Below are positions 5,978 through 42,924 of a stretch of DNA of 64,000 bases, one piece after another. The translations under genes and the position numbers were made by a program. This DNA is from a virus: positions 115,976 to 179,975 of the IMG/VR virus record IMGVR_UViG_3300026488_000012. One strand, given 5' to 3'. Under the pieces are notes generated by a model that saw only the letters and a program-made list of their open reading frames with translations, had not been told where the DNA came from and did not search any database. Within the stretch, counting starts at the first letter, position 1. Every line of letters starts with the position of its first letter.

Positions 5978-6052
5978 TTTTTAATTTTAACTATATATAT
6001 TGTTATCTTACTAAAATGCAATAAAACTACAAGATTAGGAGGTAAATATGAG
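5978..6052 (+). repeat. 75-bp leader identical to that of the 10227 gene (copy 1)
   Basis: Bases 5978-6052 are identical to 10157-10231. The repeat covers the promoter-like motif (6003-6025), the untranslated leader, the ribosome site TTAGGAGG and the first five bases of the coding region. Both copies precede RNA polymerase subunit genes. Confidence 0.9.
6003..6025 (+). promoter_or_regulatory. Promoter-like motif of RNA polymerase beta-C gene
   Basis: TTATCTTACTAAAATGCAAT is a variant of the recurring motif. The same sequence lies at 10182-10204, and a looser form at 22727. Confidence 0.6.
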
Positions 6053-32064: not shown

Positions 32065-33558
32065 ATGGACAATGTTAAAAAAGATAATGAGAATGTTACT
32101 CAGGTAGTAAAGGAGAAATTACTACCTGATGTAGCTAAAGAGAGACTTAAAAAGTTAAAAGACATATATAAAGACGTCAAAGATGAGTTATTAGTTGTTT
32201 TACCTGGTGAGTTATATAAAAAATTAGAATCATTTGTAGAGAATTTCGAGTATTTAGAAGAAGATGATTTTGCTAATATACCTGAAGATTTACAAATACT
32301 ATTAATTAAATTACCAGAGTTTATGGAATCTGTTAAATATAAAGATGTAACATCTAAACCTCTAACAGAAGAGGTTAATAATAAGATAGTAAAAGATGAT
32401 AAAGAAATAGGTATCAAACATCCTAAAATTAAATCCGGTAAAAGTAAACAATCTTTCCTATTAGAGTTACAAGAGGGAGTAGGTTTAGGTAAAATTACTA
32501 AAATTCCATTATGGAATAGCGGGTTTTGGATTACTATAAAACCGCCTAAGACTGAAGATATAGTAAATCTTCAGCTTAAGTTAAGTGAAGAAATGGACCG
32601 TATAGCTTCACTCACTACGAATTTAGCATTTAGTAATATCACTACTGTGTTCCATAAAATCGTCTTTGAGTATGTTATGGAAAGGATAGCTGACAGTAGT
32701 TTAGATGTACCTAAAAAAGAGCTTATTAATTATATCTCGTTATTAGATTTAGATACTATTTTGTTAGGTGTATTGCAACAGGTTTACTATAATGGTTTTG
32801 ATCTTTATCTACCTTGTAAAAATAATTATAATACAGAAAAGGATGATGAGGTTAAAGTTAAGAACAAATGCAGCTACGTATTAGAAGCCAAGGTTGATTT
32901 ATCTAAATTACTATGGGTAGATATGAGTAAGATACCTGAAGAGGCTCTAGTTATAATAGCTAACTCCATGCCTAAATCTGTTACAGTAGCGGATATTAAA
33001 AAATACAAGTCTATACTTAACCGAGGTATAGATAATAGAGTTACACTGACTCTTAACAATGGGAAAACTATTAGAATGGATTTAGAAGTTCCTAATCTTA
33101 AAACGTACTTTAATGTAGGGGATATCTTCATACTTAAACTTAACAAAATCGTTAATGAACTTATGGAGAATGGAATATTAAAGAATGAGAAAGACAAAGC
33201 AGTGAATGTCGCTACCAAGACGTTGTTCCTGAGTATTTATAGTCATTTTGTAAAAGCTATTAAAAACGGAGATGTTGAGTTTACCGATAGAGATGTTATA
33301 AATGAAGCGTTAGAAATCATCTCTAGTAACAATAAAGATACTAATGAAATAATAGAAAAGATAAATAACTTCATTACTAAATCCTCTGTTACTACTATAG
33401 GGTTACCTAACTTCGTATGTCCGGTTTGTAAAGAGAAACAAGAAACAACTGATACATTTGAAAATATAGTTCCTTTAAATATGGTACTCTATTTTTTTAC
33501 TTTATGGACACACCGCTATATGAAATTACTGGAGGAAGAAAAAGAGAAACAAAAATAG
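32065..33558 (+). CDS. Putative baseplate-hub-type protein with zinc ribbon (497 aa)
   Basis: Residues 145-190 contain LPLWNSGFWITIKPP-like sequence (IPLWNSGFWITIKPPKTEDIV), a pattern I associate with T4 gp26-like baseplate proteins. The C-terminus has a Cys pair, FVCPVCKEKQ (about 451-460), the start of a short zinc-ribbon-like end. The first 130 residues are a charged helical extension. The next gene starts inside its last 55 bases, as in tail cassettes. Function call is tentative. Confidence 0.5.
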   Translation: MDNVKKDNENVTQVVKEKLLPDVAKERLKKLKDIYKDVKDELLVVLPGELYKKLESFVENFEYLEEDDFANIPEDLQILLIKLPEFMESVKYKDVTSKPLTEEVNNKIVKDDKEIGIKHPKIKSGKSKQSFLLELQEGVGLGKITKIPLWNSGFWITIKPPKTEDIVNLQLKLSEEMDRIASLTTNLAFSNITTVFHKIVFEYVMERIADSSLDVPKKELINYISLLDLDTILLGVLQQVYYNGFDLYLPCKNNYNTEKDDEVKVKNKCSYVLEAKVDLSKLLWVDMSKIPEEALVIIANSMPKSVTVADIKKYKSILNRGIDNRVTLTLNNGKTIRMDLEVPNLKTYFNVGDIFILKLNKIVNELMENGILKNEKDKAVNVATKTLFLSIYSHFVKAIKNGDVEFTDRDVINEALEIISSNNKDTNEIIEKINNFITKSSVTTIGLPNFVCPVCKEKQETTDTFENIVPLNMVLYFFTLWTHRYMKLLEEEKEKQK

Positions 33559-41914: not shown

Positions 41915-42613
41915 ATGGAATTTGATAACATGTTTGAAGATGTTACTAAGAAGTATGAGAAGAAAGTAAAGAACAATACTAAATCTAGACCTAAGCAAAT
42001 TAACCTGTTTAAAGAAACACCTAATAAGAAGGAATTGGATTTAGATAAGTTAAAGTATAACAATGATGTAGTAATATTACTATACGATAAAGATGTATCG
42101 TTACCAGAGCATATCGTAGATAGATTTAAAACAATTCTAAATACTATAAAAGAAAAAGGTCTTAACATAAGAGGTATGTGTAAGAATATAGATATACTGT
42201 TAAAACTATTTAAATATAACATAGACAAGAAGAAGATGAGATTGATTAAACCTTGGAAAAAGTTCTGTGGCACGGATAAAGACATTAAAGAATGGACTCC
42301 TAGTAATACTAACATAGAATTAGCTGCTAATTATATTAATAACTTCGATAAGTTACCACCGGCTGTGAAATATATAAACTCAGCACTTCTAACATTATTA
42401 TTCTCTTATACTGGCGAAAACTTAGCTAAATATATAATAGTATATGACCCTTATTACAAGAATCCTGCTAAAGATAAATTAGATTACAATAAGTCTAAGG
42501 ATACGTTTAACCTATACAGGTTAAATAAAAACATGGATGGATTGTTGAATATCTATAATATAGCGAACGAAGATGATTATAAAAACTTGTTGGAGTTAAT
42601 GGAAAAAAAGTAA
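41915..42613 (+). CDS. Unknown protein, zero-frame product of a -1 frameshift gene (232 aa)
   Basis: AAAAGGAG precedes ATG 41915. The protein is Lys-rich, with a compact domain from about residue 50 to 215 (CGTDKDIKEWTPSN near 133, YIIVYDPYYKNP near 184). No function recognised. The last codons read GAA AAA AAG TAA: an in-frame A_AAA_AAG slippery heptamer (42604-42610) immediately before the stop. GGAG lies 8 bases upstream, at the place where the dnaX gene has its stimulating Shine-Dalgarno. The reading continues in the -1 frame for 97 residues. Confidence 0.7.
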   Translation: MEFDNMFEDVTKKYEKKVKNNTKSRPKQINLFKETPNKKELDLDKLKYNNDVVILLYDKDVSLPEHIVDRFKTILNTIKEKGLNIRGMCKNIDILLKLFKYNIDKKKMRLIKPWKKFCGTDKDIKEWTPSNTNIELAANYINNFDKLPPAVKYINSALLTLLFSYTGENLAKYIIVYDPYYKNPAKDKLDYNKSKDTFNLYRLNKNMDGLLNIYNIANEDDYKNLLELMEKK

Positions 42614-42903
42614 CTAAGTTTCATAACTACACTTTTGTTATCAGTGACGATGATTCCCTGAAATTACCATCTATACTTAATGAAGTTGATAACATTTTAG
42701 ATAATGCTAATACGTATGATGACGTAGTTATAGGGTTCAAAGAGTTATTAAGTAATAAAAACGCTTATGATATCCTGAGTAGTATGGATGAACTCACGTA
42801 TGTCATAACCATAGAGTTCAAACCGTTAACTAATGAACTATTTGAATTTCTAATCAGAGAAACAGGTAATAGTTATCCTATAATAGACTTTACATACAGG
42901 TAG
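42604..42903 (+). CDS. -1 frame extension (97 aa) of the 41915 gene
   Basis: From the slippery heptamer the -1 frame is open to TAG 42901-42903, reading VTKFHNYTFVISDDDSL and onward to IIDFTYR. It has no ATG, GTG or TTG start near its beginning, coding composition equal to its neighbours, and its stop codon sits in the stem of a terminator (42894-42924) as in most real genes here. A small hairpin (42623-42641) follows the slip site. The fusion would be about 330 residues. The alternative is a single-base assembly error in the run of seven A. Confidence 0.6.
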   Translation, partial: KKVTKFHNYTFVISDDDSLKLPSILNEVDNILDNANTYDDVVIGFKELLSNKNAYDILSSMDELTYVITIEFKPLTNELFEFLIRETGNSYPIIDFTYR

Positions 42904-42924
42904 GGGGGTTTCTCCTATCTGTAT
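42894..42924 (+). terminator. Terminator of the frameshift gene
   Basis: ATACAGGTAGG pairs with CCTATCTGTAT (one G-U); T-rich sequence follows (42930-42938). The stop of the -1 frame is in the stem. Confidence 0.8.

Follow-up and report, generated by a model that had tools for sequence, protein, structure and literature searches.

The question raised by this locus is whether a giant phage makes two proteins from one gene by changing reading frame on a run of seven A's. The gene in question (41915..42613, plus strand, as are the other features of the junction described below) encodes a 232-aa DprA-like protein and ends ...TTG GAG TTA ATG(42599) GAA AAA AAG TAA(42611-42613), with a long open -1 frame behind it; the initial annotation, which had read this ending in the same way, took the arrangement for a dnaX-type programmed -1 ribosomal frameshift. 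The window, as we call the whole 64-kb stretch of DNA that was analyzed, is the right end of the 179,975-base IMG/VR record IMGVR_UViG_3300026488_000012. It is low in G+C (31%) and has a coding density of 93%. The major capsid protein, the RNA polymerase subunits and the family-B DNA polymerase share about 25-35% identity with their counterparts in phiKZ-like giant phages, and judged by these protein matches the phage is a distant relative of phiKZ. All codon and run statistics given here cover the 64-kb window, with genes called mechanically as ORFs.

The immediate surroundings of the proposed slippery site are largely as first described. The heptamer A_AAA_AAG (42604..42610) lies in the frame of the DprA-like gene, within an A run of exactly seven in the sequence (42603-42609), and is followed directly by the zero-frame stop TAA (42611..42613). 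The two frames overlap by 31 nt (42583-42613) with the in-frame heptamer inside the overlap, and the extension is in exactly the -1 frame served by A_AAA_AAG, the slippery site preferred in E. coli (PMC5009743). A Shine-Dalgarno (SD)-like word, GGAG (42592..42595), stands 8 nt upstream of the heptamer as had been noted, which places it 9 nt before the heptamer's second base (42605) and within the zone of 6-17 nt upstream of that base where an SD-like stimulator is accepted (PMC4066793). The chance of finding GGAG upstream of the site is about 3%, or 12% for any SD-like word accepted as stimulatory; of the remaining two real in-frame A_AAA_AAG sites of the window, neither has GGAG, AGGA or GAGG upstream. 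The small hairpin that was said to follow the site did not survive analysis. Three stretches 3' of the site fold like their shuffles (z -0.07, -0.06 and +0.44), and no hairpin that obeys the published rules (PMC4066793) was found after the site, even though such hairpins are present at 37% of random positions within genes. A search of Rfam gave no match.

The gene upstream of the stop is whole. Searches of the phages collection, viral_contigs and genome_contigs with the gene or its extension gave no useful relative, and relatives were therefore fetched through the DNA polymerase, whose alignment with six phage homologues led to 80 IMG/VR records and later to one more. Within these records a search with the gene uncovered a clear family of about 17 homologues, down to 19% identity. 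In profile searches, aligned homologues match PHROG 768, the phage DprA-like recombination-mediator proteins, at E 2.1e-18 and 3.8e-21, reaching position 180-181 of 191, and several members of the family match to the C-terminal end of the profile. The window copy also matches (phrog_768, positions 14-114) but is diverged, with an E value of 0.0034. All eight sequences of the alignment end between -4 and +3 residues from the window TAA, and because the homologues end so close to this codon the gene is a DprA-like (PHROG 768) gene that is complete at its own stop without the extension.

The extension (42610..42903) consists of 97 codons, counted from GTA at 42610 (VTKFHNYTFVISDD...IIDFTYR), and a stop, in a frame that stays free of other stops between 42583 and the TAG at 42901-42903. 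The statement that it has no start of its own proved correct: the earliest ATG, GTG or TTG in the -1 frame is the ATG at 42784 (codon 68), and among near-cognate codons ATC at 42640 comes first. Its codon score is -3.72, compared to -3.69 +/- 0.12 for windows of real genes, while stop-free shadow ORFs of at least 80 codons score about -3.77 to -3.93 and none of them reaches the score of the extension. The extension occupies the sole unassigned stretch between two genes, and this stretch holds no other ORF. Its TAG is in the rising arm of the 13-bp stem of a terminator hairpin (42894..42924; -18.1 kcal/mol, z -4.7), and such an ending is indeed common here, since, of the 14 other genes that end in a strong 3' hairpin, 11 carry the stop codon within the stem. 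The DprA-like gene itself is without a terminator. Gene-like codon usage, the lack of any other ORF and the stop within a strong terminator stem together establish that the extension is protein-coding. The codon score, the stop in the terminator and the missing terminator of the upstream gene further mean that the transcript passes through the extension and that its frame is, or until very recently was, read. To translate it requires either a change of frame or initiation without any start codon.

The extension is an orphan. No homologue was found in any collection searched, and a match to phrog_11519 (E 0.013) was dismissed; no relative showed this match, whereas one unrelated control genome did. 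A single-sequence AlphaFold model predicts a beta-alpha-beta-beta-alpha-beta arrangement at low confidence (pLDDT 58), and Foldseek searches with this model returned many weak ferredoxin-like matches, none at E < 0.001, so a possible ferredoxin-like fold is treated as a lead only.

The run of A's is itself unusual in this genome. Genes in the window contain 5 runs of at least seven A's, where 36 +/- 4 are expected when synonymous codons are shuffled within genes, a depletion of about seven-fold; such runs are common in intergenic leaders, and T runs are depleted less than A runs. The same avoidance applies to the slippery words, with in-frame A_AAA_AAA seen 2 times in the window genes against 22 expected and A_AAA_AAG seen 3 times against 9. 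At the observed in-gene density, the number of runs of at least seven A's expected in a 31-nt overlap is 0.0027, and for an in-frame A_AAA_AAG it is 0.0016. The presence of a seven-A run exactly in the frame overlap is not chance, and with only 0.0027 expected the coincidence needs a cause. This argument by itself does not name the cause, since slippage by either ribosome or polymerase and mutation by insertion or deletion both predict an A run at a frame break. Slippage is somewhat favored by the direction of the shift (-1) and by the GGAG, and an indel by the absence of a downstream structure and of conservation.

Comparison with the relatives, which had been proposed as a check, did not turn up the same layout. 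Among the PHROG 768 copies that were found, the window copy alone has an extension that is coding and lies in a shifted frame: the extension is absent from all of the roughly 17 homologues, none of them has the slippery site, and in those read in detail no start-less -1 frame lies behind the gene. Copies of the junction with any number of A's were sought in viral_contigs, and none was found. A continuous gene in a relative, which had been named as the case against frameshifting, was likewise not found among the relatives. The nearest relative (G009, locus L054) is 57% identical in the polymerase and 35% in the DprA-like gene, and there the TAA of the DprA-like gene is followed, after 11 nt that include an SD sequence, by a separate 106-aa gene with its own ATG, whose TAG is also within a terminator stem. 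This gene and the window extension agree in position, size and ending. Their sequence similarity is marginal, however, with shuffle tests giving p 0.028 for global and 0.16 for local alignment, and the single-sequence AlphaFold models also differ, being mostly helical for the 106-aa gene (pLDDT 76) and alpha/beta for the extension. Neither the shuffle tests nor the predicted folds support homology, and the 106-aa gene could be either a diverged counterpart of the extension or an unrelated small gene.

The explanation that we tentatively prefer, at close to an even chance, is that recoding joins the DprA-like protein to the extension of about 97 aa. Most ribosomes would halt at the TAA and release the 232-aa protein, and a minority would shift frame on the run of seven A's, most likely as tRNA-Lys re-pairs in the -1 frame on A_AAA_AAG, with help from the GGAG upstream. 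The shifted ribosomes would then read 97 more codons to produce a fusion of about 329 aa, with a small, possibly ferredoxin-like domain as its C-terminal part. The addition of one A by transcriptional slippage would yield the same fusion, but ribosomal slippage is more likely, given that the run has no more than seven A's and that the heptamer and SD-like word are of a kind used by ribosomes. Programmed transcriptional slippage generally calls for a homopolymer of at least about 8-9 A/T, with eight or nine as the usual thresholds (PMC3711429, PMC1088944), and the seven A's at this site fall short of that. The junction is at the natural C-terminus of the DprA-like protein, immediately ahead of the extension's first predicted strand, and by the model would thus fall in a linker. 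The fusion would plausibly serve in tethering or regulating the DprA-like protein. Direct support exists for the layout, for the extension being coding, for a transcript end common to both parts and for the upstream gene being complete at its stop; we infer that slippage occurs, at some level, and that the fusion is useful.

The strongest competitor is that one base was lost recently from a run of eight A's, or was miscounted there during assembly, so that a gene of about 330 codons is, or was until lately, continuous and the break has no function. We regard this as a substantial possibility, if one that falls short of an even chance. Runs of seven or eight A's are prone to mutation, a fact that accounts equally well for the avoidance of such runs in this phage; the record is a metagenomic contig; and the layout is a singleton without conservation. 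In prokaryotes, singleton frame breaks are mostly indels or errors and occur in excess near the 3' ends of genes (PMC3711429). Two of the five in-gene runs of at least seven A's lie within 11 nt of the gene end, where slips are tolerated, and three of the five either adjoin the start codon or lie within 11 nt of the stop. On the other side, a fused gene with an internal run of eight A's would be unusual in this genome, where a run of at least eight occurs once in 61 genes, the continuous fusion appears in no relative, and no other frame-broken gene was seen in the 64-kb window. In addition, the break coincides exactly with the natural end of the family to which the upstream gene belongs, and consensus errors from short reads are rare at a run of seven A's, which counts against a miscount in assembly. 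The absence of other broken genes, the position of the break at this natural end and in the putative linker, and the exceptional status of an in-gene run of eight are the reasons that slippage is slightly favored over base loss. Against recoding stand the lack of a downstream structure, of a conserved layout and of homologues of the extension, together with the fact that a run of seven A's is the likeliest place for an indel. Antonov and colleagues regarded frame breaks that fall outside clusters as being, for the most part, indels, errors or overlaps (PMC3711429), and our confidence in recoding is restrained for this reason.

It is improbable that the extension is a separate gene with an unorthodox start, expressed by re-initiation near the TAA or from the ATG at 42599 followed by an early slip. 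The separate 106-aa gene of the nearest relative provides a precedent of sorts, although its homology to the extension is undemonstrated, and GGAG TTA ATG in the window could serve as a start signal. The ATG (42599..42601) is codon 229 of the DprA-like gene and a poor candidate for an independent start, in that the gap between GGAG and ATG is 3 nt, outside the 4-8 nt used by this phage (30 of 32 GGAG-start spacings are 5-7 nt), and the frame is wrong for the extension; a start there was ruled out on both counts. The -1 frame offers no ATG, GTG, TTG or near-cognate codon at the right place. Nor does the site match the leaders of phage ribosome-binding sites any better than controls do: the sequence AAAAAAAGTAACTAAG, considered as the decayed ribosome-binding site and ATG of a second gene by comparison with the leader at 32065, is aligned equally well by 25-32% of control A runs. 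Less probable still is that the -1 frame is open merely by chance or is a 3' untranslated region. The extension's lack of a homologue and of a start codon would fit this reading, but a stretch of 97 codons that is free of stops and native in its codon usage, with a stop in a terminator stem and in a sequence of such high coding density, is hard to reconcile with it.

If the slippage fusion is real, its closest parallels are among the two-ORF dnaX genes of some Chlorobi, in which the zero-frame stop comes immediately after the site and a shift of frame is required for the longer product (PMC5009743, PMC3711429). The example of Chlorobium phaeobacteroides, with seven A's, resembles the window in its -1 change on a short A run, its adjoining stop and a longer product available only by shifting, and the seven-A Chlorobium dnaX has been argued to use transcriptional slippage (PMC3711429). 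The gene is nonetheless unrelated, the Chlorobi cluster extends across 12 genera whereas the window site is a singleton, and potential dnaX-like stimulatory signals were noted in C. phaeobacteroides, in contrast to the structureless window site. The resemblance to E. coli dnaX consists of A_AAA_AAG and an upstream SD-like word, which in E. coli is spaced at 10 nt rather than 8. In that gene the site is followed by a stem-loop and frameshifting yields the shorter of the two products, so the window site, with its longer product, is not like E. coli dnaX in output. Tail assembly chaperone frameshifts (gpG/gpGT type), from which phage recoding is mainly known, also extend a phage gene in a shifted frame, but the present locus does not encode a tail chaperone and its layout is not conserved. 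The proposal of a dnaX-type frameshift thus stands with respect to the heptamer in the overlap and its phase, the SD-like word at a stimulatory distance and the coding -1 frame, and fails with respect to the stem-loop, the conservation of site and layout in homologues, and the output expected from E. coli dnaX. Given that downstream structure and conservation are lacking, the site should be termed a candidate for recoding rather than be counted among the dnaX-type frameshifts.

Were recoding to be borne out, this DprA-like gene from a relative of phiKZ would add a new protein context to phage recoding, and the fusion would be of a kind that annotation pipelines overlook. The strong avoidance of seven-A runs suggests that slippage is costly in this phage, and makes a run that is kept at a frame junction a good candidate. 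A broader proposal, which is plausible but more doubtful, is that a phiKZ-related lineage obtains two DprA-like forms from one gene by a slip on seven A's, with a ferredoxin-like domain that exists solely as an extension, in a genome that otherwise purges such runs from its genes. If the break is merely an indel, the locus is instead a caution for the annotation of metagenomic phages.

Several further features of this clade deserve mention. The clade's DprA-like family keeps an acidic, aromatic N-terminal motif (41915-42010 in the window and the homologues), for example MDEFDNMF, as well as an INLW/INLF motif, with a variable linker joining the two; this N-terminal region looks like a docking tail. 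In one relative (G010, L117:667-2061), a single 464-aa gene fuses a second DprA-like domain behind putative YbiA-like and macro-like parts. In more distant relatives the DprA-like gene is flanked by an RNA-polymerase-like gene and by one that encodes about 210-325 aa, while in the window it is displaced from the RNA-polymerase-like gene (29038) and is now on the opposite side, close to the polymerase gene (compare L054:12206-13296). Finally, the leaders of three RNA-polymerase-like genes (6048, 10227 and 23886) have TTAGGAGGTAAAT in common before the ATG, and those at 6048 and 10227 are identical over 18 nt, CAAGATTAGGAGGTAAAT; most other genes have AAAGGAG.
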